Positions 17,383-43,079 of a stretch of DNA of 64,000 bases are shown in pieces. Position 1 is the first letter of the stretch. Each line of letters starts with the position of its first letter. The stretch is from Actinomycetota bacterium (GTDB taxonomy: Bacteria; Actinomycetota; Actinomycetes; Actinomycetales; Dermatophilaceae). The DNA is taken from positions 1 to 64,000 of the forward strand of contig JAIUOP010000001.1 of assembly GCA_020161815.1 (NCBI GenBank). Direction: 5' to 3'. Made by a program: the position numbers and the translations under genes. The notes under the pieces were generated by a model. That model did no database searches. It was given only the letters and a program-made list of their open reading frames with translations, and was not told the origin of the DNA.

Positions 17383-18012
17383 GTGATCATTGCCCTCATC
17401 ATCATCGCCGTCCTCGTGGTGGCCGTCCTCGCCTGGGCGATCGGCACCTACAACGGCCTGATCAAGCTCCGCAACCTGGTGCAGGAGGCCTGGCGCCAGA
17501 TCGACGTCGAGCTGACCCGCCGCCATGACCTCATCGGCAACCTGGTCGAGACGGTCAAGGGCTACGCCGCCCACGAGCGCGGCACCCTCGAGGACGTCAT
17601 GCGCGCCCGGAGCGCCGCGATGGCCCCCGGGCAGTCCCCGGCGGCCCAGGCCCAGTCCGAGGGGATGCTGACCCAGGCGCTCGGTCGGCTCATCGCCGTG
17701 GCCGAGGCCTACCCCGACCTCAAGGCCAACCAGAACTTCCTCGCCCTCCAGAACGAACTGTCGAGCACCGAGGACCGGATCGCGTCGGCGCGGCGCTACT
17801 ACAACGCCAACGTGCGTGAGCTGAACACCAAGGTCGAGACGGTGCCCAGCAACATCATCGCGGGCATGTTCAACGTCGGCCGTGAGGAGTACTTCGAGGC
17901 GGTCGGCGAGCAGCGCGAGGCCCCGCGCGTCGACTTCGGGCAGCGCGACTCCGACATCCCGCCGCCGTCGTCCTACACCGGCCACGAGGGCACCCCGGAG
18001 GCACGTCCGTGA
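17383..18012 (+). CDS. LemA family membrane protein
   Basis: First gene of the PknG block. The 209 residues begin with one membrane helix (IIALIIIAVLVVAVLAWAIGTYN). The all-helical LemA domain follows, with the family-typical LVQEAWRQIDVELTRRHDLIGNLVETVKGYA and ENRIASARRYYNANV-like segment near residue 145. The tail is Pro-rich. LemA proteins face the outside or periplasm-equivalent and are poorly understood; several are linked to envelope stress or signalling. The GTG at 17383 is chosen because GGGGAG lies nine bases upstream and the helix then starts directly. TAGGAT at 17343-17348 may be the promoter of the whole block. The stop overlaps the next start (GTGA). Confidence 0.9.
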   Translation: MIIALIIIAVLVVAVLAWAIGTYNGLIKLRNLVQEAWRQIDVELTRRHDLIGNLVETVKGYAAHERGTLEDVMRARSAAMAPGQSPAAQAQSEGMLTQALGRLIAVAEAYPDLKANQNFLALQNELSSTEDRIASARRYYNANVRELNTKVETVPSNIIAGMFNVGREEYFEAVGEQREAPRVDFGQRDSDIPPPSSYTGHEGTPEARP

Positions 18013-19235
18013 GTGACGGCACCGCCGCGGTCCCTGCGCCCCTGACCCCGCCGGACCAGGTGCTCACGCTCGAGGCGCCGGCCGCTCCGGCGCCCGTCGT
18101 GGCCACCCAGGCCCCCAAGATGGCCCCGCAGGTGCAGGCGGAGGCCATCCCCGGTCTCGATGCCCGCGTCGACACCTTCATGGACGCCCTCACCAAGGCG
18201 GCCCCGCGCAGCCCGGAGTTCGCCCAGCAGGCCGACAACGTCCGCACCATGGGCGACGCCGACATCCGCAAGGCGGCCGAGACGAGCAACAGGCTGCTCC
18301 AGACGCCGGTCAAGGCGCTCAAGGAGGGCGGGATCGCCCAGGGCAGCGCGGTCGGCAAGACCCTGCTCGAGCTGCGCCGCACCGTCGAGGACCTCGACCC
18401 CAGTGCCGTCACCGGTGGGCGCAAGATCCTGGGCATCATCCCCTTCGGGGACAAGGTCGTCGACTACTTCCGGCGTTACCAGTCCGCGCAGAGCCAGCTC
18501 AACGCGATCCTGCACAGCCTGCGCAACGGCCAGGACGAGCTCACCCGCGACAACGTCGCCCTCAACCTGGAGAAGACGAACCTGTGGGCGGCCATGGGCC
18601 GACTCAACCAGTACGTCTACATCGCCGAGCGGCTCGACACCAGGCTCGCGGCCCGGATCGCCGAGCTCGAGCTGACCGACCCCGAGGGCGCGAAGGCGCT
18701 CCAGCAGGACGTGCTGTTCTACGTCCGCCAGAAGCACCAGGACCTCCTCACCCAGCTCGCCGTCTCGATCCAGAGCTACCTCGCGATCGACGTCATCATC
18801 AAGAACAACATCGAGCTCATCAAGGGCGTCGACCGCGCCTCGACGACGACGGTCTCGGCGCTGCGGACGGCGGTCATCGTCGCCCAGGCCCTCGGCAACC
18901 AGAAGCTCGTCCTCGAGCAGATCACCGCGCTCAACACGACGACGAGCGGGATGATCCAGCGCACCTCGGAGATGCTCAAGGACAACTCCGCGGCGATCCA
19001 GGAGCAGGCCGCGAGCAGCACGATCGGCATGGCCGAGCTGCAGGCGGCCTTCCAGAACATCTACGCGACGATGGACTCGATCGACACCTTCAAGGTCAAG
19101 GCGCTCGACACGATGGCGCAGACCATCGGTGTCCTCGAGACCGAGGTGGAGAAGTCCAAGGACTACCTCGCGCGCGTCCACGCCCAGGACGCCCGGGGCA
19201 CCCAGACCATCAACCTCGACCAGCCGGGCGCCTGA
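18009..19235 (+). CDS. TelA/KlaA-like toxic-anion resistance protein
   Basis: Cytosolic, largely alpha-helical protein of 408 residues belonging to the TelA family: IPFGDKVVDYFRRYQSAQSQLNAIL, VYIAERLDTRLAARI, QDVLFYVRQKHQDLLTQLAV, and a C-terminal helix ending ETEVEKSKDYLARV. An N-terminal Pro/Ala-rich segment of about 50 residues precedes the conserved core. TelA was named for tellurite resistance, but family members occur in chemical-stress and phosphorylation-linked gene neighbourhoods; its biochemical role is unknown. It overlaps the LemA stop and is followed 24 bases later by a small unknown gene. Its place beside a kinase/phosphatase/FHA/VWA set is the informative point. Confidence 0.9.
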   Translation: MSDGTAAVPAPLTPPDQVLTLEAPAAPAPVVATQAPKMAPQVQAEAIPGLDARVDTFMDALTKAAPRSPEFAQQADNVRTMGDADIRKAAETSNRLLQTPVKALKEGGIAQGSAVGKTLLELRRTVEDLDPSAVTGGRKILGIIPFGDKVVDYFRRYQSAQSQLNAILHSLRNGQDELTRDNVALNLEKTNLWAAMGRLNQYVYIAERLDTRLAARIAELELTDPEGAKALQQDVLFYVRQKHQDLLTQLAVSIQSYLAIDVIIKNNIELIKGVDRASTTTVSALRTAVIVAQALGNQKLVLEQITALNTTTSGMIQRTSEMLKDNSAAIQEQAASSTIGMAELQAAFQNIYATMDSIDTFKVKALDTMAQTIGVLETEVEKSKDYLARVHAQDARGTQTINLDQPGA

Positions 19236-19259
19236 GCGCAGCTGCGGGCAGCGGGGACC

Positions 19260-19814
19260 ATGGGCTTCAAGGACTGGTGGGGCCGGACGTTCGGCTCGCC
19301 CGAGCCGGCGGGGCCGACGCTGCCCGCGCCACCCGGGGAGCCCGAGATCCTCGCGGCGCTCGGCCGGGTCTCCACCATGCTCGATGGTGCTCACGCCAGC
19401 CCGCTGATCCGTTCCCGCGTCACCCGCATCGACACGGCCATCCGGGCGATCCTGCCGCGGTTGGCGGGGTTGGGCGTGGGGTCCCAGGACGCGTATGCCG
19501 TCGTCGCCACCGCGACGAACTACCTCCCGGAGTCGGTGAGCGCCTACCTGAGGCTGCCCCGGGACTGGGCCGACTCCCGCCCGATCGACCAGGGCCGCAC
19601 CGCCCTCATGGTGCTCGTGGACCAGCTCGAGCTGCTCGGCACCAGCATGGATCGCATGCTCGATGCGGCCGTCAACGCCGACGCCCAGGCGCTCATCGCG
19701 CAGGGGCGCTTCCTCGACGCCAAGTTCGGACGCGCCACCCCTGCGGCGGACGTCCCCGGGCCAGCACCGTTGCCGGGACCGACCGGCGCCGGCAACACCT
19801 TGGACCTCGGGTGA
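19260..19814 (+). CDS. Hypothetical helical protein between TelA and AAA genes
   Basis: Not recognised by name. The 184 residues start MGFKDWWGRTFGSPEP, have a Pro-rich linker, then a predicted helical core (RVTRIDTAIRAILPRLAGL; DAYAVVATATNYLPESVSAYLRLPRDW; ALMVLVDQLELLGTSMDRML) and a Pro/Gly tail. There is no signal peptide, membrane helix, Cys cluster or catalytic motif. The LPESVSAYLRLP segment resembles the short helical segment often encoded with TelA genes, so it may be a TelA partner. Its ATG is 24 bases after telA, and codon use matches the neighbours. Confidence 0.7.
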   Translation: MGFKDWWGRTFGSPEPAGPTLPAPPGEPEILAALGRVSTMLDGAHASPLIRSRVTRIDTAIRAILPRLAGLGVGSQDAYAVVATATNYLPESVSAYLRLPRDWADSRPIDQGRTALMVLVDQLELLGTSMDRMLDAAVNADAQALIAQGRFLDAKFGRATPAADVPGPAPLPGPTGAGNTLDLG

Positions 19815-19845
19815 GCCCCATGACGACGATGACGCGGGAGCGAGC

Positions 19846-21591
19846 GTGACCGGCACCGACCGACCCACCCTGGCCCAGGCTCTCGCCGGACTCGTCGAGG
19901 CCGGCCTCGCCGCGGGTGCCGACGAGCAGGTCGTGCGCGCCGAGGGGGAGGCACTCGCGGCCACCGTCGCGGAGGCCGCGCCGGGGGCGTATGCCGACTG
20001 GGTCCGCGAGACCGGGGGCGACCGAGGCGCGGAGGACTTCACGGCCGCCGCCTCCCGCGGTCGCCGGTGGCGGTCGGGGCCGACCCCGACCCTCGCCTCC
20101 CTCGCGTTGGCCGGCGGAGCGGGCGCCTCGGCATACGCCCGGGCCCTGGGCGCGGTCTGCCAGGCGGCCGCCGGTCTCGGCGCGCCGACCCCACGGACGC
20201 TGGGCAACGCGACGACGGCCGCGGCTGCCCAGCTCGCCGTGCTCGTCCCCTCGGGTTCTGCCGGTGGGCGTCCCGAGCCGGCCGCAGGAACCTCTTCCGT
20301 GGCTGGTGTGAGCACCTCGCAGGGGGAGGAGGTGACCGCGGTGGTGAGCCGGTTGTGGTCCCAGGTCATGGATGACCTGAAGTCGGTGAGTGCGCGCGTG
20401 CGGGAGGTCGCTCCGCCCGACGCGCGCGCCGGCACGGGCCTCGACCTCGACCCGGGGGCCGATCCGTGGGCGCCCGGTCGCTTCACCCTCGACCCTGACT
20501 CCCCGAGTCCCACCCCCACCCCGTCGAACGAGCACGAATCGCCGAGAGAAGCCGAGGATCCCGGGCGATTCGTGCTCGTTCGACGGGGTGAACCGGAGGG
20601 TGGGGCGGCGGAGGCGGCTGCCCCGAATCCCGGCCCCGAGGCCAAGGTCGAGCCCGAGCCGGACCCGCGCACCCTCGAGGAGCTGCTCGCCGAGCTCGAC
20701 GCCCTCACCGGGCTGCGGGCGGTCAAGGCCGAGATCCACCGCCAGGTCGCGCTCCTGCGTGTCGAGGCCAAGCGCAAGGAGGCCGGCCTCAAGACCCCGG
20801 CGATCACCCGTCACCTGGTCTTCGTCGGCAACCCGGGCACCGGCAAGACGACCGTCGCCCGGCTCGTGGGAGGCATCTACCGCGCCCTCGGACTGCTCAG
20901 CAAGGGCCAACTCGTCGAGGTCGATCGCAGCGAACTCGTCGCGGGCTACCTCGGGCAGACGGCGATGAAGACCGCGGACGTGGTGAAGTCCGCGATCGGC
21001 GGCGTCCTCTTCATCGACGAGGCCTACAGCCTGGCCGGTGACCAGTACGGCACCGAGGCGATCGACACCCTCGTCAAGGAGATGGAGGACAAGCGCGACG
21101 ACCTGGTCGTCATCGTCGCCGGCTACCCCCTCCCGATGGAGGTCTTCATCGCCCAGAACCCCGGCCTGGCCAGCCGCTTCCGCACGACGATCGAGTTCGC
21201 GGACTACACCGACGACGAGCTCGTCGGCATCTTCCGGACGCTGGCCACCAATGCCGACTACGACGTGGACGACGCGGTCGAGGCCCGCTTCCGCGACCTG
21301 CTCGCCCATGTGGAGCGCGGCCCGTCCTTCGGCAACGGCCGCTTCGCCCGCAACACCCTCGAGGCGGCGATCGGTGCCCACGCCTGGCGACTGCGCGAGG
21401 TCGAGGACCCCGACCTGACTGCGCTGCGGACCCTCGCACCCGAGGACCTGCTGCCCGAGCCGGACGCCCTCGACCTGAGCACCCCGGCCCCCAAGCCGGC
21501 CACCCCCGGCGCCGAGCCGTCCGGCAGCGGCCTCGAGCCGTCCAGCCCGGGCCCCGACCCGGCGACTCCCGACCAGGAGGGGACTCCATGA
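19846..21591 (+). CDS. CbxX/CfqX-type AAA ATPase
   Basis: AAA+ protein of 581 residues. An N-terminal helical region (to about 185) and a disordered Pro/Glu linker (about 185-265) precede one ATPase module. That module has Walker A GNPGTGKT (328-335), Walker B VLFIDEAY (D391, E392), sensor region VVIVAGYP and arginine finger region NPGLASRFRTTIEFADY. This is the CbxX/CfqX (SpoVK-like) family, whose members remodel partner complexes such as Rubisco. The GTG at 19846 is chosen for GGGAG eight bases upstream. The linker contains a 27-bp perfect inverted repeat in the DNA (20517-20590). The C-terminal tail is Pro-rich. It overlaps glnX by four bases. Confidence 0.9.
   Translation: MTGTDRPTLAQALAGLVEAGLAAGADEQVVRAEGEALAATVAEAAPGAYADWVRETGGDRGAEDFTAAASRGRRWRSGPTPTLASLALAGGAGASAYARALGAVCQAAAGLGAPTPRTLGNATTAAAAQLAVLVPSGSAGGRPEPAAGTSSVAGVSTSQGEEVTAVVSRLWSQVMDDLKSVSARVREVAPPDARAGTGLDLDPGADPWAPGRFTLDPDSPSPTPTPSNEHESPREAEDPGRFVLVRRGEPEGGAAEAAAPNPGPEAKVEPEPDPRTLEELLAELDALTGLRAVKAEIHRQVALLRVEAKRKEAGLKTPAITRHLVFVGNPGTGKTTVARLVGGIYRALGLLSKGQLVEVDRSELVAGYLGQTAMKTADVVKSAIGGVLFIDEAYSLAGDQYGTEAIDTLVKEMEDKRDDLVVIVAGYPLPMEVFIAQNPGLASRFRTTIEFADYTDDELVGIFRTLATNADYDVDDAVEARFRDLLAHVERGPSFGNGRFARNTLEAAIGAHAWRLREVEDPDLTALRTLAPEDLLPEPDALDLSTPAPKPATPGAEPSGSGLEPSSPGPDPATPDQEGTP
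20517..20590. repeat. 27-bp perfect inverted repeat inside the AAA gene
   Basis: The left arm (20517-20543, beginning CACCCCGTCGAACG) and right arm (20564-20590, ending CGTTCGACGGGGTG) are exact reverse complements, separated by 20 bases. The repeat is translated in frame as part of the Pro/Glu linker, residues about 224-248. The linker position suggests insertion of a palindromic element that the protein tolerates. Confidence 0.9.
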
Positions 21592-22901
21592 GCCAGGCCA
21601 CCGCTGCGGCCCCGCCGCCCACCGGCCGCCCCGCCGCGCCTCCCGTCCAGGCAGCCTCGGCCCCCGCGACGGGCCGTGGCCCCGGTGTGCCGGGTGCTTC
21701 GGTCCCGGCAGACGTGCTGGCCGGACGCGGGATCCCGACCGGGCTGCGACAGCGCCGGATCGTCGCCGCGCTCGCCGTGGCCGTCTTCACGATCCTGACC
21801 GCGGCGCAACTCGTCCTCGGTGCTAACGCGGCCCGCCAGGCCGCTGCGGACGCCGCCCAGGTGATCCGTATCCAGGACATCAAGGTCGACCTGCTGCGCG
21901 CCGACGCCCTCGCCACCAACGCCTTCCTCGTCGGCGGTCTCGAGCCACCCGAGCAGCGCGCCGCCTACGACGAGGCGATCGCCACGGCCACGGGGACCAT
22001 CGCGGCAGCCGCCCAGGCCCAGTCGGCCGACCAGCAGGCCCTCGCCGAGCTGTCGGGGCTGGTGGTGCGTTACGCCTCCGACATGGAGGTCGCGCGCGCC
22101 AACAACCGGCAGGGCCTCCCGGTCGGCGCCGCCTACCTCCGCCAGGCCAGCTCGGAGCTGCGCGGACGCGGCATGACCCTCGTCGACGCCCTGCTCGACG
22201 CGAACACGACACGGGCGGACAACTCGTTGGCCAACCAGCACCCCTTGTGGGTCCTCGTGCCGGGGATCCTGGCGATCGCGGTGCTGGTCTGGGTCAACCA
22301 GTGGATCGCTCGTCGCTTCCGGCGCCGGTTCAACATCGGCCTCGTCCTCGCCGCGGGCGCCGTCCTGGCGGCCACCGTGGCCGCCGTGACGGTCAGCGGG
22401 ATGCAGGCGGCCGAGAACTCGAGCCTCTCCAACGGCTCCTACCGCGACCTGGTCCAAGCGGCACAGGCCCGCAGCCAGGCCAACGCCGCCAAGTCCAGCG
22501 AGAGCCTGCGACTCATCGCCCGGGGCTCGGGCAAGGCGTTCGAGACGGCCTGGTCCACGCAGGCCCAAGCCGTCTCCGCCTACCTGCCGGTGGAGGCCAC
22601 GGACGCCTGGAATGCCTACACGGCCGCGCACGCCGAGGTCGTGGCCAAGGACGACGCCGGCGACTGGGACGGCGCCGTCGCACTCGCGACCAGCCAGACC
22701 GAGGGCTCGTCGCCGGCCTTCGCCGCCTACGACAAGCAGGTGGCCGGTGTGGTCGAGTCCACGGCGAGCACCGTGCGGTCCACGCTCGATGCCGGCGCCT
22801 GGACCCCGGTCCTCGTCGCGATCGGCACGGTGCTGGCCGGGATCGCCGCTGCCTGGCTGGCCTGGCGCGGGGTGTCCCGCCGACTGGAGGAGTACGCATG
22901 A
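21588..22901 (+). CDS. glnX: GlnX-like four-helix membrane sensor protein
   Basis: Membrane protein of 437 residues with helices near 58-78, 219-238, 249-270 and 406-427. They enclose two extracellular helical-bundle domains of about 140 residues each, related to chemoreceptor-type sensor domains, and there is no cytoplasmic kinase or HAMP domain. A Pro-rich cytosolic N-terminus precedes helix 1. The order GlnX-GlnH-PknG matches the amino-acid-sensing locus of mycobacteria and corynebacteria, where GlnX relays the ligand state of GlnH to PknG. Assignment rests on topology and gene order. It starts at ATG overlapping the AAA stop and overlaps glnH in turn. Confidence 0.85.
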   Translation: MSQATAAAPPPTGRPAAPPVQAASAPATGRGPGVPGASVPADVLAGRGIPTGLRQRRIVAALAVAVFTILTAAQLVLGANAARQAAADAAQVIRIQDIKVDLLRADALATNAFLVGGLEPPEQRAAYDEAIATATGTIAAAAQAQSADQQALAELSGLVVRYASDMEVARANNRQGLPVGAAYLRQASSELRGRGMTLVDALLDANTTRADNSLANQHPLWVLVPGILAIAVLVWVNQWIARRFRRRFNIGLVLAAGAVLAATVAAVTVSGMQAAENSSLSNGSYRDLVQAAQARSQANAAKSSESLRLIARGSGKAFETAWSTQAQAVSAYLPVEATDAWNAYTAAHAEVVAKDDAGDWDGAVALATSQTEGSSPAFAAYDKQVAGVVESTASTVRSTLDAGAWTPVLVAIGTVLAGIAAAWLAWRGVSRRLEEYA

Positions 22902-23941
22902 GCCCGGCCATGACCTCCCGGCGCCCGATGCCTCGGACGCGGCTCCGGGTGCTCACCAGCACCGCCGCCATTCTGCTGGTGACCGCGCTCGTCACGGCAT
23001 GCTCCGGCCAGGTGCCGACCGTGGTGCCCGACCCCGGGGCCTCGGCGTCCGCGTCGGCACCGCCTTCGGCGTCCGCGTCGGCAAGCCCCTCTCCCAGCGC
23101 GAGCGCGGCCCCCGTCACCTGCGACAACCCCACCCAGAGCTATGCGCCGACCGGCCCGCTGCCGGCCGCCGAAGCGCTCCCGGCCGGCTCGACCATGGCC
23201 GCCATCCGCGCCCGTGGGCGGCTCATCGTCGGCGTGTCGGCCGACACCTACCTCCTCGGCTCCCGCAACCCGCTGACCGGCCAGATCGAGGGCTTCGACA
23301 TCGACCTCGCCCGTGCCATCGGCCAGGCCATCCTCGGCCCGCAGGCGAACGTCCAGCTCGTCGTCCTCACCGCCGCGGACCGGATCCCGGCCCTGCAGGA
23401 GGACCGCGTCGACATCGTCGTGCGCAACATGACGATGAACTGCGACCGCTGGACCCAGGTCGCCTTCTCGCAGGTCTACTACCAGGCGGGCCAGAAGGTC
23501 CTCGTCCGACGCGGCTCGGGCCTGACCGACCTCGCGTCGCTCGCCGGCCACACCGTCTGCGCACCCAAGGGCACGAGCAGCCTGAAGAACCTCGAGACGA
23601 TGGCCCCGGCCGCCACACCGGTCCCCGCCGACAACCACACCGGCTGCCTCGTCCTCTTCCAGACGGGTGCGGTCGACGCCATCACCGGTGACGACACGGT
23701 GCTCGCCGGGCTGGCCGCCCAGGACCCGTATGCCGTGGTGACCGACGCGCCCGCCTTCACCCAGGAGCCCTACGGCGTGGCCACCAAGGCCGGTGCGGTC
23801 GACCTGGTCCAATTCATCAACGCCCTCCTCGAGCAGATGCGCGCCGACGGTCGCTGGGCCGCCATGTACGCCACATGGCTCGCGCCCACGCTCGGCGCCG
23901 GCACCGGCCAGCCGGCCCCGAACTACGGTCGCGCGCCATGA
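22898..23941 (+). CDS. glnH: GlnH-like amino-acid-binding lipoprotein
   Basis: Extracytoplasmic type-3 solute-binding protein of 347 residues. The signal peptide ends in lipobox VTAC (Cys35), followed by a Ser/Ala/Pro tether (about 40-70). The binding fold has RLIVGVSADTYLLGSRNP, GFDIDLARAIGQAILG and DIVVRNMTMNCDRW, then the lobe-2 LAGHTVCAPKGTSSLKNL. No permease or ATPase accompanies it, so it is a sensor rather than a transporter component. In mycobacterial GlnH the ligand is aspartate/glutamate and the partner is GlnX, encoded just upstream here. The ATG overlaps the glnX stop (ATGA). Confidence 0.92.
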   Translation: MSPAMTSRRPMPRTRLRVLTSTAAILLVTALVTACSGQVPTVVPDPGASASASAPPSASASASPSPSASAAPVTCDNPTQSYAPTGPLPAAEALPAGSTMAAIRARGRLIVGVSADTYLLGSRNPLTGQIEGFDIDLARAIGQAILGPQANVQLVVLTAADRIPALQEDRVDIVVRNMTMNCDRWTQVAFSQVYYQAGQKVLVRRGSGLTDLASLAGHTVCAPKGTSSLKNLETMAPAATPVPADNHTGCLVLFQTGAVDAITGDDTVLAGLAAQDPYAVVTDAPAFTQEPYGVATKAGAVDLVQFINALLEQMRADGRWAAMYATWLAPTLGAGTGQPAPNYGRAP

Positions 23942-25155
23942 GCAGGACGACGGCGCCCCAGGCCCCCGGGGCGTTGGGCGAGCAGCTCGACCCCAGCCGC
24001 GTCCAGACCTACCTCGGCGAGCTCGAGGAGTGGGTGCGTGCGCGCCGCACCGAGCTCGACGAGCTCGACGCCGCCGCGCTGGCCTCGGAGCGACGGGCCG
24101 AGCTCACCGGGGACCTCACCCTCTCGATGGCGGTGTGGAAGGCCGTCAGCGACCGGTTCACGCTGCTCTTCGCGACCTGGGACGGGGGCCGCGTCGGTCC
24201 GATCGAGCGGGAGCGGCTCTCGGTCCTCATCTGGGGCCGTCTCGAGGCCAGCCTCGACCCGGTCGCCCTCGACGCGGCCGGCGCCGGGCGGCGCGGTGGC
24301 GACGGTGCGGGGGGAGCGCTGTCGGTCTCGTTGCCGGAAGCGTGCCGGCTCTCCGACGCACTCGTGAGCCAGCTGCGGGTCCGCCTGGCCCTGGATCCGG
24401 CCGCGGATGCCTACTCCCGCCGGGTCAAGGACCTGCGCGCGCAGCTCGAGCGACTGCGGGACCAGGTGGCCCTCGAGCCCGCCTCGGCCCGCACGTCGCT
24501 GACCCGTCAGGTCGACGAGCTCGGCTCTCGCACAGCCGCTCTCGTGGAGAAGCTCGAGCGTGGCGCGGACGTCGGCGGCCTCATCGGGCCCCTGGAGAAC
24601 GACGCGGCGCGGCTCGAGCGTGACCTCATCGTCGGCGGTGCGCGCCGCCGCGAGCTCGTCGACGTCGTGCGCGAGGTCCAGGACCGCCGAGCCGCCCTCA
24701 TCGCGCGCGGCTCCGCCCTCGAGTCGCTGGCCGCCCAGGCGGTCTCCACCGTCGACCCCTGCCCCAACTACGCCGTCCCGGAGGTCGAGGCGCTGGGACC
24801 GGTGCCGGGCAGCGAGGGCGAGCTCACGGCATACCGGGATCGCCTGGATCGGGTCGCCCGGGCGATGGACGTCGCCCAGGAGGCGTATGCCGCGGCGCTG
24901 CGGACCCGGGATGACCTCCTCGCGCGCCTCGCGGCGACCGAGGTGCGCGCTCAGGCTGCTGGTGTCGGCGCGGTGCCCGACGTCGTCGCGGCCGCCCACG
25001 GTGCCCGGGAGGTCCTCGACCGAACCCCGGCACCGCTGCCGGCCGCGGCCGCCGCCGTCTCGCTGCACGAGGCCTGGGTGCGGTGGTGGGACTCCGAGAG
25101 CGGTCGCCGCGCCGCCCGCCGCCAAGGACTCCTCACCGGAAGGACTTCCGCATGA
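23938..25155 (+). CDS. Coiled-coil protein between glnH and pknG
   Basis: Not recognised. The 405-residue soluble protein is rich in Ala, Arg, Leu and Glu with long predicted coiled coils (about 155-205, RRVKDLRAQLERLRDQVALE; about 225-285, LERDLIVGGARRRELVDVVREVQDR; about 300-345). There is no signal peptide, membrane segment or Cys motif. An N-terminal conserved-looking block reads LEEWVRARRTELDELDAAALAS and WKAVSDRFTLLFATWDGGR. It overlaps glnH and pknG by four bases each, so it is co-translated with them. A scaffold for kinase and phosphatase is a reasonable guess, not evidence. Confidence 0.75.
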   Translation: MSRTTAPQAPGALGEQLDPSRVQTYLGELEEWVRARRTELDELDAAALASERRAELTGDLTLSMAVWKAVSDRFTLLFATWDGGRVGPIERERLSVLIWGRLEASLDPVALDAAGAGRRGGDGAGGALSVSLPEACRLSDALVSQLRVRLALDPAADAYSRRVKDLRAQLERLRDQVALEPASARTSLTRQVDELGSRTAALVEKLERGADVGGLIGPLENDAARLERDLIVGGARRRELVDVVREVQDRRAALIARGSALESLAAQAVSTVDPCPNYAVPEVEALGPVPGSEGELTAYRDRLDRVARAMDVAQEAYAAALRTRDDLLARLAATEVRAQAAGVGAVPDVVAAAHGAREVLDRTPAPLPAAAAAVSLHEAWVRWWDSESGRRAARRQGLLTGRTSA

Positions 25156-27497
25156 GTGCCTGCACCCAGCCGGGCTGCACCGGATCGATCGTCGACGGCT
25201 ACTGCGACGTGTGCGGCTCACCCGGGCCGGGAGGCAGCGCCTCGCCCGTGGCGCCGGCCGCCGCGGGGGACCGGTGCACCCAGCCCGGGTGCAGCGGGTC
25301 GATCGTCGACGGCTACTGCGACGTCTGCGGCACACCCGGCGCTGCGACCACCGCCCCGAGCGCGCCCGCGCCCGCGCCCCATGACCTCGACGAGGCCACG
25401 GTGGCCGGAGTGCTCGGCTCGACCCCGTCGACCGCGAGCGCCTCGGTCCGACTGGGTTCTGCCGCACTGGGATCCGCGCGCGTCGGCACGAGCGCGACGC
25501 GACGCGTGCGGTCCGGGTCGACGCGCCTGCGGTCCGCGCGCCTGGGTGCGGGCCTCACGAGCGTGCCACCGGAGCCCGCGGTCGATCCCGCGGGTGCCAT
25601 CAACCCCAACCCCGGGGTGCCCGAGGACAAGCGCTTCTGCTCCGTCTGTGGCGCAGAGGTGGGCCGCTCGGTCGAGGGCCGACCGGGCCGGGAGGAGGGC
25701 TTCTGCCCCAAGTGCGGCACGGCATACAGCTTCACCCCCAAGCTCAAGGCGGGCGATCTCGTCGCCGGGCAGTACGAGGTGGCCGGGGCCCTCGCCCACG
25801 GCGGGCTCGGGTGGATCTACCTCGCCCGTGACCGCAATGTCTCCGACCGGTGGGTCGTCCTCAAGGGGCTGCTCAATTCCGGCGACAAGGACGCGCTCGC
25901 CGCGGCGATCGCCGAGCAGCGCTTCCTCGCGCAGGTCGAGCACCCGCTCATCGTCGAGATCTACAACTTCGTGACGCACGACGACGCCGGCTACATCGTC
26001 ATGGAGTACGTCGGCGGCAAGTCGCTCAAGCAGATCCTGAAGGCCCGGATGGTTGCGGCCGGCGGCTCCTACGACCCGCTGCCGGTGGACCAGGCGCTGG
26101 CCTTCATCATCGAGATCCTGCCGGCCTTCCAGTACCTCCACGACCTCGGCCTGGTCTACTGCGACTTCAAGCCGGACAATCTCCTGCAGGTCGGCGACGC
26201 CGTCAAGCTGATCGACCTCGGCGGCGTCCGCCACGTCGACGACCAGGACTCGGCGATCTACGGCACGGTCGGCTACCAGGCGCCCGAGGTGGCCGAGGTG
26301 GGGCCGACCGTGGCCAGCGACATCTGGACGATCGGGCGCACGCTGCTCGTGCTGTGCATGGAGTTCCGCGGCTACCAGTCGACCTACCTCACCTCCCTGC
26401 CCGACCCGGCGACGACGCCGCTGTTCCAGAAGCACGACTCGCTCTACTGGCTGATCGCCAAGTGCTGCGCGCTCGACCCGGACGACCGCTTCGCGTCGGC
26501 GGACGAGCTGCGCACCCAGGCGCTCGGCGTGCTGCGCGAGGTCGTCGCTGCGTCGACCGAGGGCACGGCCCTCACCTCGTCGGCCTCGATGCTGTTCACC
26601 ACACCGGCGGTGTCCACCGCCACCGTGGAGTGGTCCCAGCTGCCGTGGCTGCGACCGGACCAGACCGATCCGCAGCACTCGTGGCTGACCTCGATCGCGC
26701 CGGGCCCGCCCGACCAGCGGCTCAAGGACCTCGCCAAGGCGCCCGAGGACACCGCCGAGGTGTGGCTCGCCCGCGGATTGGAGCACCTGCGTGCTGCCGC
26801 GCCGGCGAAGGCGATCGAGGCCTCCCGCCAGGTCCTCGCCGCCGACCCGTGGGACTGGCGAGCGCTGTGGCTCAGCGGGCTCGCGCACCTCCTCGGGGGA
26901 CAGGCGGAGTCGGCCCGGGACAACTTCAACGCGGTCTACCGCCAGGTGCCGGGCGAGCTCGCGCCCAAGCTGGCCCTGGCGATCGCCTGCGAGGCCAGCG
27001 GCCAGCCCGGCGTGGCCGAGAGCCTCTACGCGACCTGCGCTTCCACCGATGCGGCCTACCTCCCACCCGCGGCCTTCGGGATGGCGCGCGTGCGTGCCGC
27101 GCGGGGCGATGCCACGGGCGCCGTGGCCGCCCTCGACCTGGTGCCGAGCACCAGCCGCGGGTTCGGTGAGGCCCGGCGCCGCCGCGCCGACTACCTCCTC
27201 ACCGGGGCGAGCGACCTCGGGCGGCTCGACGCGGCATACCACTCCCTCGACGGCGTGCGGATGGACGTCACCGAGCGGGAGTCGCTCAGCGCCCGCATCC
27301 TGGAGCAGGCCCTCGCCCTCGTGGGCCCCCAGGGTCGGCAGCCGGGCACCGTCGGGCCGTATGCCGCGGAGTCGGGTGCACTGCGGACGGCCCTCGAGGA
27401 GCGCTATCGCCTGCTGGCGCGCGAGGCGGCCACGGTCGAGGAACGGATCGACCTGGTCAACCGGGCCAATGCCGTGCGGACCTGGAGCCTGACGTGA
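25152..27497 (+). CDS. pknG: Ser/Thr protein kinase PknG with extra zinc ribbons
   Basis: Soluble kinase of 781 residues. Two tandem Cys motifs of the form CTQPGCTGSIVDGYCDVCG (about 4-22 and 40-60) come first, then the PknG rubredoxin-like domain with FCSVCG and GFCPKCG (about 160-190). The kinase domain (about 205-480) has G-loop GALAHGGLGW, ATP lysine K238, catalytic YCDFKPDN (D338) in place of HRD, and DLG (355-357) in place of DFG. These are PknG-specific features. A helical TPR region fills the C-terminus. Mycobacterial PknG phosphorylates GarA to control glutamate metabolism. The extra N-terminal ribbons are not part of the classic PknG. Confidence 0.96.
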   Translation: MSACTQPGCTGSIVDGYCDVCGSPGPGGSASPVAPAAAGDRCTQPGCSGSIVDGYCDVCGTPGAATTAPSAPAPAPHDLDEATVAGVLGSTPSTASASVRLGSAALGSARVGTSATRRVRSGSTRLRSARLGAGLTSVPPEPAVDPAGAINPNPGVPEDKRFCSVCGAEVGRSVEGRPGREEGFCPKCGTAYSFTPKLKAGDLVAGQYEVAGALAHGGLGWIYLARDRNVSDRWVVLKGLLNSGDKDALAAAIAEQRFLAQVEHPLIVEIYNFVTHDDAGYIVMEYVGGKSLKQILKARMVAAGGSYDPLPVDQALAFIIEILPAFQYLHDLGLVYCDFKPDNLLQVGDAVKLIDLGGVRHVDDQDSAIYGTVGYQAPEVAEVGPTVASDIWTIGRTLLVLCMEFRGYQSTYLTSLPDPATTPLFQKHDSLYWLIAKCCALDPDDRFASADELRTQALGVLREVVAASTEGTALTSSASMLFTTPAVSTATVEWSQLPWLRPDQTDPQHSWLTSIAPGPPDQRLKDLAKAPEDTAEVWLARGLEHLRAAAPAKAIEASRQVLAADPWDWRALWLSGLAHLLGGQAESARDNFNAVYRQVPGELAPKLALAIACEASGQPGVAESLYATCASTDAAYLPPAAFGMARVRAARGDATGAVAALDLVPSTSRGFGEARRRRADYLLTGASDLGRLDAAYHSLDGVRMDVTERESLSARILEQALALVGPQGRQPGTVGPYAAESGALRTALEERYRLLAREAATVEERIDLVNRANAVRTWSLT

Positions 27498-28576
27498 CCT
27501 GCGCCGCCTGTGGCCAGGCCCTGCCCGATGGAGCCCTCTTCTGTGAGGCCTGCGGCGCGAAGGTCGGCTCGGCCGCTGCCCCGACGGTGCTGACCCCGCC
27601 GACGACCGCGAACGAGGACGAGAGCCCGATCAGCACGCCGACCGCGGTGCGCCCACCCGTCGTCGTCGAGGCTCCACAGGCGCGAACCTGTGCGGAGTGC
27701 GGCGGGACCGTCGCCGCCGACGGCTACTGCGAGCAGTGCGGCGCCAAGGCGGCCAGCGAGCGGGACCACTTCCGCGAGGCACCGGCGCCCTGGCTGGCCG
27801 GCGTCTGCGACCGCGGCATCGTCCACGCCCGCAACGAGGACGCGATGGCGTTGTATGCCGACCCCGCCGTCCCGGGGCGCTCGGTCGTCGTCGTGTGCGA
27901 CGGCGTGTCCTCGTCGAAGGACTCGGATGTCGCCGCCCTGGCCGGTGCCCGGGCCGCGCGTGACGTGCTGCGGGCGCCCCTGCCCCAGGGCCTGGGGGTG
28001 GCCGAGAGCATCGAGGCCGCCGCGACCAAGGTCTTCGTCACGGCGGCCGAGGCGGCGAACACGGCCGTGGTCGCCCACACCGACCTGTCGTCGGAGGCGC
28101 CCGCCTCGTGCACCTTCGTCGCGGCTGTCGCCGAGGGATCGCTGCTGCGGTATGCCGTGATCGGGGACTCGCGCGCCTACTGGCTGCCCGACGCGGGAGA
28201 GGGCGTCCAGCTCACGACGGACGACTCGATGGCCCAGCTGCTGATGGCCGGCGGGATGACGCGCGCCCAGGCCGAGGCCTCCCCGCAGGCGCATGCGATC
28301 ACCAAGTGGCTCGGCAAGGACAGTCCCGACATCGTGCCGGTGTGCGGTTCGCTCGACGCGACCGGTCCCGGATGGCTGCTCGTGTGCTCGGACGGCCTCT
28401 GGAACTATGCGTCCGAGCCGGCGGCACTAGCCGGCCAGCTCAGGGCCGCGGCTGCTGGGGCCGCGGAGGAGTCGAAGGCCGACCCGGGGACCCTCGCGCT
28501 GGCCCTGGTGGAGTTCGCCAAGGCGTGCGGCGGCCACGACAACATCAGTGTGGCGCTGGCCCGGGTCGTGCCCTGA
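27494..28576 (+). CDS. PP2C-family phosphatase with N-terminal zinc ribbons
   Basis: Likely phosphatase that reverses PknG phosphorylation. The 360-residue protein opens with CAACGQALPDGALFCEACGAK (about 3-23) and a second ribbon CAECGGTVAADGYCEQCGAK (about 65-85), each with four Cys. A PP2C domain follows with metal-binding residues in GIVHARNEDAMA, VVVVCDGVSSS, LVCSDGLWNY and GGHDNISVALARV, all in place, so it should be active. No membrane segment is present, unlike PstP. The GTG start overlaps the pknG stop. The ribbons match those of PknG and the FHA protein in style, suggesting a shared docking partner. Confidence 0.93.
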   Translation: MTCAACGQALPDGALFCEACGAKVGSAAAPTVLTPPTTANEDESPISTPTAVRPPVVVEAPQARTCAECGGTVAADGYCEQCGAKAASERDHFREAPAPWLAGVCDRGIVHARNEDAMALYADPAVPGRSVVVVCDGVSSSKDSDVAALAGARAARDVLRAPLPQGLGVAESIEAAATKVFVTAAEAANTAVVAHTDLSSEAPASCTFVAAVAEGSLLRYAVIGDSRAYWLPDAGEGVQLTTDDSMAQLLMAGGMTRAQAEASPQAHAITKWLGKDSPDIVPVCGSLDATGPGWLLVCSDGLWNYASEPAALAGQLRAAAAGAAEESKADPGTLALALVEFAKACGGHDNISVALARVVP

Positions 28577-28631
28577 CGCCCGGCTCGTCATCGCCTGATC
28601 CCGCGACGCAGCGACGAGGCCGCCCCTTCAC

Positions 28632-28696
28632 CAGTCGAAAGTAGGCGAGGAGCTGCGTCAACCTCCTCCGCACCACTCCTCGTCTACTTTCGACTG
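28632..28696. repeat. Intergenic inverted repeat, copy 1 (shared with 43009-43079)
   Basis: CAGTCGAAAGTAGGCGAGGAG (28632-28652) pairs with its near-perfect reverse complement (28676-28696) across a 23-base loop, with one mismatch. The same stem sequence recurs at 43009-43079. It lies in the 252-base gap between the PP2C gene and the VWA gene, the only sizeable break in the block. It could terminate or attenuate transcription there. The rest of the gap shows no gene. Confidence 0.88.
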
Positions 28697-28828
28697 TCGG
28701 GGAGAGGGCTGAGGGGCGGTCGCCCGGGAGTGTCGCGCACTCTCGACGCGCGAAACGCGCTGCGTTCCCGTGAGCCGGTCGCGTCGGGTTGAATGGGTCG
28801 GACAGGTCCGGCAGACGAAGGGGTGACG

Positions 28829-30109
28829 ATGGCCGACTTCAGCGCGGCGGTCTACCAGAACGAGTTCCTCGCCGACGGTGGCACCGACGTCCAGGCCATC
28901 GTGTCGGTGACGTGTACCGGCGCCGGCACGGCCGGGCAGAGCGACGCCGGTGGCGATGCCGGCGAGATCATCATCATCGACACCTCGGGGTCGATGGGCG
29001 TGGAGACGATGGAGGGCGCCAAGGCGGCTGCGGTCGCGGCCCTCGGGGAGATCGTCGACGGCACCTTCTTCGCGATCATCTCCGGCAACGGCGCCGCCTT
29101 CCTCGCCTACCCCAACGTGCGCTCCGGCCCGGGCATGGTGCGCATGGACGACCGCACCCGCGCCGAGGCCACGCGCGCCATCCATGCCCTCTCGGCGGCG
29201 GGCGGCACCGTCATCTCTACCTGGCTCGACCTCGCCGGCACGCTGTTCGCGTCGGTCCCCGAGGTCCGGCAACGCCACGCCCTCCTCCTCACCGACGGGG
29301 AGAACAACGAGCCCGCGGGTGTCCTCGATGCGGCGATCGCCCGTGCCACGGGCTACTACCAGGCGGACTGCCGCGGCGCCGGCACCGACTGGAAGGTCAG
29401 CGAGATCCGGCGCATCGCCCAGGCCCTCCTCGGCACGGTCGACATCATCCCGGAGCCGGCGCAGATGGAGGCCGAGTTCGAGGCGATCATGCGCACCGCG
29501 ATGTCGCGGGGTGTCGCCGATGCCCAGCTTCGCGTCTGGGCGCCGCAGGGGGCGCAGGTGGTCTTCGTCCGCCAGGTGCTGCCCACCGTCGAGGACCTCA
29601 CGGCCCGTCGCACCCCGGTCAACGAGCTCACCGGCGCCTACCCCACGGGCGCGTGGTCGGACGAGACCCGTGACTACCACGTGAGCGTGCGCCTGCCCGC
29701 GAAGGCGGTCGGTCAGGAGCAGCTCGCCGCGCGGGTGCAGCTCGCGGTCGGTGACGAGGTCAAGGCGCAGGGGCTGGTCAAGGCCAAGTGGTCCGGCGAC
29801 TCCAACCTCACGGCGCGCATCGATGCCCAGGTCGCGCACTACACCGGGCAGACCGAGCTCGCGGCAGTCATCCAGGAGGGCCTGGCCGCCAAGGCAGCCG
29901 GCCAGGAGGAGCTCGCGACGACCAAGCTCGGCCGGGCTGTCCAGCTGGCCGCCGAGACCGGAAACGACGAGGCAACGGCCAAGCTGCGCAAGGTCGTCGA
30001 GGTCGAGGACGCCGAGACCGGCACGGTGCGCCTGAAGAAGGCGGTCGAGAAGGCCGACGAGATGGCGCTCGACACCGCGTCGACCAAGACGACGCGGGTG
30101 CGCAAGTGA
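28829..30109 (+). CDS. VWA-domain protein
   Basis: Cytosolic protein of 426 residues with a von Willebrand type A domain. The metal-ion-dependent adhesion site is intact: DTSGSM at 51-56, the threonine region SAAGGTVIST, and LLLTDGENN. A C-terminal beta-rich domain (LRVWAPQGAQVVFVRQVLPTV) and a helical tail ending in a Lys/Thr-rich segment (TASTKTTRVRK) follow. The tail threonines are possible kinase targets. VWA proteins commonly pair with AAA ATPases as remodelling partners, and an AAA gene lies in this block. The ATG at 28829 follows GAAGGGG; an earlier in-frame GTG-type extension to 28793 is less likely. It overlaps the FHA gene. Confidence 0.9.
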   Translation: MADFSAAVYQNEFLADGGTDVQAIVSVTCTGAGTAGQSDAGGDAGEIIIIDTSGSMGVETMEGAKAAAVAALGEIVDGTFFAIISGNGAAFLAYPNVRSGPGMVRMDDRTRAEATRAIHALSAAGGTVISTWLDLAGTLFASVPEVRQRHALLLTDGENNEPAGVLDAAIARATGYYQADCRGAGTDWKVSEIRRIAQALLGTVDIIPEPAQMEAEFEAIMRTAMSRGVADAQLRVWAPQGAQVVFVRQVLPTVEDLTARRTPVNELTGAYPTGAWSDETRDYHVSVRLPAKAVGQEQLAARVQLAVGDEVKAQGLVKAKWSGDSNLTARIDAQVAHYTGQTELAAVIQEGLAAKAAGQEELATTKLGRAVQLAAETGNDEATAKLRKVVEVEDAETGTVRLKKAVEKADEMALDTASTKTTRVRK

Positions 30110-30885
30110 AGTGCCCCAACGGCCACGTCAGCGCGGCCAGCGACTACTGCGACACCTGCGGCGAGGCCATGCCTGCGGCGCCGTCGTATGCCGAGGGCTC
30201 GCCGTCCGCGGGTGCCTCCGGTCCCGCGGTGGTCCGGGAGGCCGGCGCTCCTGCCGTCGATTCGGCGGACCCGGGAGCTGGCCGGGGGAATGGCTCGGCC
30301 GGCGGAGGCGGCGGCAGCGACCAGCCGTGCCCCAACTGCGGTGTGCCGAATCCTGCCGGTGCCCTGTTCTGCGAGAACTGCGGCTACGACCACACGACCG
30401 GCCAGATGCCGCGCCGTGAGGACCCGGCCGCTGCCGGGGCGCCCGCGCCGGGTCCGGATGCCAACACCGCTCCGGCGCTGGATCCGCCGTGGGTGGCCGA
30501 GGTCTGGATCGACCCGGCCTGGTACGCCCAGCAGGAGAGCCCTGACCCGCTCCCGAGCCCGGGCCTGCCCGCGGTGGTGGCCCTACGGCACACCTCGCTC
30601 CTCATCGGTCGGCACTCGGCGAGCCGAGGGATCACGCCCGACATCGACTGCGGTGTGGACAACGGTGTCTCCCGCCGACACGCGCAGCTGACCACGGACG
30701 GCACGCGCTGGTGGGTCGAGGACCTTGCCTCGAGCAATGGCACGTTCATCGGTGCCGCGACCGAGCCGCCGCCGAGCACCGCGATCCCCGTGGGCGCCAA
30801 GCGCGAGATCGGTCCCGACGACCGGATCTACGTCGGCTCCTGGACGCGGATCGTGCTGCGCGTCGCCGCCGACGGCGAGGTCTGA
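30106..30885 (+). CDS. FHA-domain protein with N-terminal Cys ribbons
   Basis: Phosphothreonine-binding protein of 259 residues. Two Cys-rich ribbons (CPNGH...YCDTCG at about 3-22; CPNCG...LFCENCG at about 74-92) are joined by a disordered linker. The C-terminal FHA domain carries GRHSASRG, SRRHAQL and the SSNGTF motif, so phosphopeptide-binding residues are present. It starts at GTG inside the VWA stop. It is the obvious reader of PknG phosphorylation and might fill a GarA/OdhI-like place, but the GarA ETTS phosphosite is not seen. It is the last gene of the block, facing the convergent ABC-F gene 38 bases on. Confidence 0.92.
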   Translation: MKCPNGHVSAASDYCDTCGEAMPAAPSYAEGSPSAGASGPAVVREAGAPAVDSADPGAGRGNGSAGGGGGSDQPCPNCGVPNPAGALFCENCGYDHTTGQMPRREDPAAAGAPAPGPDANTAPALDPPWVAEVWIDPAWYAQQESPDPLPSPGLPAVVALRHTSLLIGRHSASRGITPDIDCGVDNGVSRRHAQLTTDGTRWWVEDLASSNGTFIGAATEPPPSTAIPVGAKREIGPDDRIYVGSWTRIVLRVAADGEV

Positions 30886-43008: not shown

Positions 43009-43079
43009 AGACAGTCGAAAGTAGACGAGGAGCCGCTTCCCGCGCTGGGAGGCGGCTCCTCGTCTACTTTCGACTGTCT
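43009..43079. repeat. 28-bp perfect inverted repeat, copy 2 of the intergenic element
   Basis: The left arm 43009-43036 and right arm 43052-43079 are exact reverse complements (outer sequence AGACAGTCGAAAGTAGACG, inner GAGGAGCCGC). The 15-base loop can itself fold a little further (TCCC/GGGA). The outer 21 bases recur at 28632-28696. It sits between fba and DUF3151 and ends two bases before the DUF3151 ribosome-site region, so it may terminate fba mRNA or regulate DUF3151 translation. Confidence 0.92.

Follow-up and report, generated by a model that had tools for sequence, protein, structure and literature searches.

The window is the whole stretch of 64,000 nucleotides that was analysed, and it belongs to an actinobacterium. 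It contains a gene cluster in the order LemA, TelA, a small gene, an AAA ATPase, GlnX, GlnH, a coiled-coil gene, PknG, PP2C, VWA and FHA (Table 1). The kinase carries rubredoxin, kinase and PknG TPR domains in the order of the PknG family, and GlnX and GlnH are encoded alongside it. The nearest named PknG found was that of Phycicoccus elongatus (80% identity), and it matches the solved PknG structure 2PZI with 41% identity and a TM score of 0.82. When the PknG model was used in a fold search, the matches were PknG and other kinases only, and nothing was returned for the ribbons. In this clade, the genes from TelA to the AAA ATPase have a mostly constant place upstream of GlnX; outside it they were rarely detected. 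Membership in a defence system was rejected, because the PADLOC matches were generic kinase and AAA matches only.

In the preliminary description the genes from PknG to FHA formed a single operon, which is nearly right. The PknG and PP2C genes overlap, and so do the VWA and FHA genes, but PP2C and VWA are separated by a 252-bp gap that holds a palindromic repeat. About 19 copies of this repeat (arms AGTCGAAAGTAGNCGAGGAG) exist in the genome, and a second copy in the window lies at 43013–43075. The PP2C and VWA genes overlap in two relatives (L032 and L033).

Table 1. Features of the PknG cluster, with positions in the window
Feature	Position	Strand	Remarks
TelA, small uncharacterized gene and AAA ATPase	18009–21591	+	Extend the cluster upstream in this clade
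GlnX transmembrane signal transducer	21588–22901	+	NF058618, 253.8 bits (cut-off 250)
GlnH-like amino-acid-binding lipoprotein	22898–23941	+	SBP_bac_3, 3.9e-26
Coiled-coil gene, directly upstream of PknG	23938–25155	+	Overlaps the PknG start
PknG (two N-terminal ribbons, rubredoxin domain, kinase, TPR)	25152–27497	+	Pfam: PknG_rubred 128–198, Pkinase 208–449, PknG_TPR 503–777
PknG ribbon 1 (aa 4–22), CTQPGCTGSIVDGYCDVCG	25161–25217	+	C-x4-C-x8-C-x2-C-G; kept in relatives
PknG ribbon 2 (aa 42–60), CTQPGCSGSIVDGYCDVCG	25275–25331	+	Near copy of ribbon 1 (52/57 nt identical)
PknG rubredoxin domain (aa 128–198)	25533–25745	+	Downstream of both ribbons; also present in mycobacteria
PP2C phosphatase with double zinc ribbon, Stp1-like	27494–28576	+	PP2C_2, 5e-9; DZR, 31.3 bits (cut-off 27.3)
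PP2C ribbon 1 (aa 3–21)	27500–27556	+	C-x2-C-x10-C-x2-C-G
PP2C ribbon 2 (aa 66–83)	27689–27742	+	DGYCExCG type
Dispersed palindromic repeat between PP2C and VWA	28633–28695	+	20-bp arms, constant spacing; not part of the module
vWA protein, ArnB/4FX5-like	28829–30109	+	4FX5 match; VWA_3_C; proposed docking hub and phospho-target
vWA C-terminal tail, LDTASTKTTRVRK	30068–30106	+	Candidate phospho-site
FHA protein with two ribbons, ArnA-like	30106–30885	+	FHA and DZR above cut-off; GTG start overlaps the VWA stop
FHA ribbon 1 (aa 3–19), CPNGHVSAASDYCDTCG	30112–30162	+	C-x3-H-x7-C-x2-C-G; putative ligands C3/H7/C15/C18
FHA ribbon 2 (aa 75–93)	30328–30384	+	Aligns with the ArnB-binding ribbon of ArnA

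Six ribbons are present in the cluster. As had been described, two precede the rubredoxin domain of PknG, two are in the PP2C protein and two are in the FHA protein, all of them at N-termini with flexible linkers, which are disordered in the predicted models (pLDDT under 50). The four-Cys pattern assigned to all of them holds for five, but FHA ribbon 1 is of the Cys3His type. The FHA ribbons were predicted to fold with pLDDT 92–95, PknG ribbon 2 with about 85 and PknG ribbon 1 with about 71. The Pfam family DZR matched PP2C and the FHA protein (34.2 bits for the latter) above its cut-off. For residues 1–127 of PknG, no Pfam ribbon model scored above its cut-off, and the best stretches of all the models fell in the rubredoxin domain. 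The 4-Cys prefix family of kinases (NF045510), which needs at least 24 bits, gave 16.8 bits for PP2C, 19.2 bits for the FHA protein and no match for PknG. All six ribbons have a common aromatic-Cys-acid-x-Cys-Gly hairpin. The aromatic and acidic residues occur in 72–97% of the cluster's ribbons versus 21% of the ribbon-like motifs from the loci's other ORFs, a control set that is small and partly mixed.

The ribbons do not arise by chance, as the preliminary description had also suggested. A strict motif, C-x(2-4)-[CH]-x(4-12)-C-x2-C-G, was found only in PknG, PP2C and the FHA protein among the window's 333 six-frame ORFs with 100 aa or more. Shuffling the residues of each protein gave about 0.001 motifs versus the 2 observed, and these counts rule out both chance and a reading-frame artefact. 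The genome-wide background was taken from family searches. Only two loci in the 3.06-Mb genome scored above the DZR cut-off, and both belong to this cluster. Of the genome's other FHA and PP2C proteins, those that were read had no ribbons; the one exception, an FHA protein on contig C9, has a C-x3-H motif. The same contig (L148, 40327 and 41274; also L237) encodes several ribbon proteins, one with a TM-like and one with an RDD-like membrane part. They lie near a PP2C, a protein of 2070 aa with Fn3-like repeats and the FHA protein that has the C-x3-H motif.

The conservation of the ribbons was followed in 80 relatives from Intrasporangiaceae, Nocardioidaceae, Propionibacteriaceae, Kribbella and Kineosporia, in which the gene order is mostly unchanged. 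Among these near relatives, both ribbons are kept in 77 of 80 PP2C proteins and in all 66 of 66 FHA proteins. Since the alignments of FHA and PP2C proteins were restricted to sequences with both ribbons, the invariance of their Cys columns is in part a product of selection. The near-relative loci had been fetched with seeds that included the PknG ribbon and are biased for it. PknG was therefore re-sampled with the kinase and TPR core only, in 297 genomes of the class. Neighbourhoods were taken from this search and a family search, and were annotated with profiles built in this analysis.

In the pooled table, which joins the ribbon-seeded near relatives and the class-wide sample, a PknG ribbon and a neighbouring vWA gene occurred together in 109 loci, the ribbon alone in 7, the vWA gene alone in 3 and neither in 18 (Fisher 4e-14, uncorrected for kinship). 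The groups resembling Streptomyces, Pseudonocardia and Frankia (tentative names) mostly have a ribbon-bearing PknG beside PP2C, VWA and FHA. The PknGs without ribbons mostly belong to a Mycobacteriaceae-like family, which has GlnX-GlnH-PknG only, and to a second group of PknG paralogues; mycobacterial PknG has neither the ribbons nor a neighbouring vWA gene. In one genome (G641), one PknG has a ribbon together with PP2C-VWA-FHA, and two paralogues have neither. Independent pairs on the tree agreed versus disagreed at 3.6/0.2 for vWA, 1.5/1.2 for PP2C and 3.1/0.8 for FHA. This test was significant for no neighbour, with about six independent contrasts on the tree, because independent losses are few. 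The tree was midpoint-rooted, so loss rather than gain of the ribbons is something we infer.

Homologues that keep the enzymes but lose the ribbons freely would have spoken against a common role. This pattern was not observed, since PknGs without ribbons almost always lacked a vWA neighbour. Free turnover of the ribbons is likewise unsupported, given their retention in PP2C and FHA proteins and the tracking of the PknG ribbon with vWA. The ribbons could still be mobile add-ons of a generic kind, without a role in common, as the ribbon proteins on contig C9 might suggest. Their strong conservation, concerted loss, common acidic signature and co-occurrence with vWA make this improbable.

Some lineages show partial erosion of the module. 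One family has CPEPGCxGVIEDGYCTxTG as its PknG ribbon, in which the sequence is kept and the fourth Cys is replaced by Thr (L161, L162, L165, L166, L201, L203, L205, L206 and L207). In part of this group, PP2C is without ribbon 2 and the FHA protein is without ribbon 1. In L224, the PknG and PP2C genes have stayed together and neither enzyme has a ribbon, and no VWA or FHA gene was detected in the following 8 kb. In L212, L214, L215 and L217, no FHA gene was detected, and the vWA protein has its own C-terminal ribbon just past its conserved tail. The erosion and the vWA-fused ribbons indicate a closer tie of the ribbons to the VWA/FHA pair than to the pair of kinase and phosphatase. L224 also bears on the idea that the ribbons bind each other and unite kinase, phosphatase and reader without a separate scaffold. 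The common hairpin of the six ribbons, which are often paired, is consistent with such binding. It is nevertheless very improbable, since the kinase and phosphatase of L224, whose genes have stayed together, are both without ribbons where VWA and FHA are absent, and no precedent was found in this analysis.

The preliminary description had proposed shared docking or redox/metal control. A shared module is supported by the conservation of the ribbons across many actinobacterial families; of the two functions, docking is favoured and redox/metal control is disfavoured. As redox- or metal-sensing switches, the ribbons would act on the enzymes as proposed for the rubredoxin domain of PknG. They have Cys4 or Cys3His sites, and PMC6069109 cites a response of the M. 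tuberculosis rubredoxin domain to oxidation. Against this, residues other than the putative ligands are conserved, and the lineage in which Thr replaces the fourth Cys keeps the ribbon sequence. The presence of the ribbons also follows the partner genes, and disordered linkers separate them from the catalytic domains. Sensing is thus quite unlikely. The conserved non-ligand residues, the lineage without the fourth Cys and the precedent of the ArnA ribbon all favour docking.

This precedent comes from archaea. The match of the vWA protein to 4FX5 spans its entire length (aa 3–425, 345 bits), and 4FX5 has been superposed on an ArnB paralogue with the same three-part structure (PMC6509490). The vWA profile reaches ArnB itself (8S05_A) at 5.7e-11 in the vWA part only, and the C-terminal part belongs to the Pfam family VWA_3_C. 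The best solved matches of the FHA protein are ArnA (8S05_C and 5A8I), aligned across ribbon and FHA domain in profile and single-sequence searches. With an N-terminal zinc ribbon and a flexible linker, the FHA protein is of the ArnA type. In the 8S05 crystal, the ribbon of ArnA is docked on ArnB through the hairpin D31–Q41, and phosphorylation by ArnC moves the binding between ArnA and ArnB to the FHA domain (PMC12852372). The counterpart of the docking hairpin in FHA ribbon 2, ALFCExCG, is the best-conserved part of that ribbon outside the ligand positions. The tail of the vWA protein (DEMALDTASTKTTRxR) is also well conserved. Among 56 homologues, Ser or Thr is found at positions 418 and 421 in 98% and at position 419 in 89%, and STKT is near-invariant. 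The preliminary description overlooked the vWA protein, which is likely the common partner.

These comparisons suggest that the ribbons serve as docking tags, by which kinase, phosphatase and reader are brought together on the vWA protein in a switch like that of ArnA/ArnB coupled to GlnH/GlnX-PknG. We give this reading an even chance of being correct. Amino acids would be sensed by GlnH and GlnX, which would activate PknG; this part of the signalling is established in mycobacteria and corynebacteria (PMC6069109, PMC9769921). The vWA protein would be the scaffold on which the unphosphorylated FHA protein sits through its zinc ribbon. PknG and PP2C would be held on the same scaffold by like ribbons on flexible linkers. 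Active PknG would then phosphorylate Ser/Thr of the vWA protein, with the conserved C-terminal tail as a candidate. The FHA domain would grip the phospho-site, and PP2C would clear the phosphate and reset the switch.

Several observations weigh against docking on the vWA protein. Its co-occurrence with the ribbons is not significant on the tree, and 7 loci with a PknG ribbon but no detected vWA gene, as well as 3 with the reverse, are discordant. Only one FHA ribbon resembles the ribbon of ArnA; the PknG ribbons are spaced differently (C-x4-C), and none of the Pfam ribbon models matches them. The sequence match to ArnB is limited to the vWA part, with VWA_3_C as the C-terminal family. The coiled-coil gene also tracks the ribbons about equally well: it was detected in 100 of the 111 loci where a ribbon on PknG goes with a neighbouring PP2C and in 0 of 17 with neither, detection being based on the C-terminal third of the protein, which alone is conserved outside the clade. 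Instead of the vWA protein, the docking site of the ribbons may be this upstream protein or the membrane protein GlnX, through which PknG receives the amino-acid signal (PMC6069109). However, GlnX is present beside the ribbon-less mycobacterial PknG and so needs no ribbons. In addition, the sole solved relative with ribbon and FHA domain binds a vWA protein (PMC12852372), and vWA-fused ribbons exist in loci without an FHA gene. Docking on the coiled-coil protein or GlnX is thus fairly unlikely.

Among the closest known systems is ArnA-ArnB of Sulfolobus acidocaldarius, with its kinase ArnC and phosphatase PP2A (8S05, 5A8I; PMC12852372, PMC6509490). In both, a protein with ribbon, linker and FHA domain is paired with a vWA protein (vWA/beta-sandwich/helical in ArnB and, judged by the 4FX5 match, possibly here), a Hanks kinase and a Ser/Thr phosphatase take part, and there is a link to nutrients. 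In contrast to ArnA-ArnB, the FHA protein here has two ribbons, and kinase and phosphatase bear ribbons too. The phosphatase is a PP2C, the kinase is PknG, all are encoded in one cluster with GlnX/GlnH, and the C-terminal family of the vWA protein is VWA_3_C. The cluster shares kinase, TPR, GlnX and GlnH with the PknG-GlnX-GlnH system of Mycobacterium and Corynebacterium (PMC6069109, PMC8546545, PMC9769921), but the sampled Mycobacteriaceae-like loci have neither the ribbons nor the PP2C-VWA-FHA genes.

The link of PknG with GlnX/GlnH is already known, and so are sets of ribbon kinase, PP2C and vWA. Such sets occur in actinobacterial GAP1-N2 neighbourhoods, which are GTPase conflict systems (Kaur et al. 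2020, PMC7159879). As in the present cluster, a ribbon-fused active kinase adjoins PP2C and a stand-alone vWA gene. Here, in contrast, the kinase is of the PknG type with rubredoxin and TPR domains, and GlnX/GlnH and a ribbon-FHA gene are present. Among the open-access papers searched, none was found that links PknG to ribbons, PP2C-VWA-FHA or ArnAB. The TerY-P triad consists of the vWA protein TerY with the metal-binding TerY-C, a PP2C and a kinase. It resembles the cluster in having vWA, PP2C and kinase with metal-binding domains. In contrast to TerY, the vWA protein here and its homologues, including those with fused ribbons, gave no match to TerY_C in Pfam scans. Neither FHA nor the PknG architecture is known from that triad.

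PknG has been the subject of much work in M. tuberculosis and C. glutamicum, where it acts on one FHA-type substrate (GarA/OdhI). Tentatively, the ancestral actinobacterial PknG pathway may have been a nutrient-driven switch like ArnAB, with kinase, phosphatase and reader all attached to one vWA scaffold by interchangeable zinc ribbons, that mycobacteria, and perhaps corynebacteria, reduced to GlnX-GlnH-PknG acting on GarA/OdhI; we hold this to be possible, with somewhat less than an even chance. If the proposed docking is right, PknG in many other actinobacteria would be part of a larger device that includes a dedicated phosphatase, reader and scaffold, and what is seen in the model organisms would be a reduced form of the pathway. 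The N-terminal part of PknG would have a role, and the vWA tail would be a new candidate substrate. A bacterial pathway would also be linked to a nutrient switch of archaea whose ribbon-docked form is known from a crystal structure. Elsewhere in this genome (L235, contig C2, about 137600–138070), a GarA/OdhI-like FHA protein with the N-terminal sequence EPTTMRF (TT motif) is encoded, which is likely a classical PknG substrate. The classical output of PknG may therefore coexist with that of the cluster.
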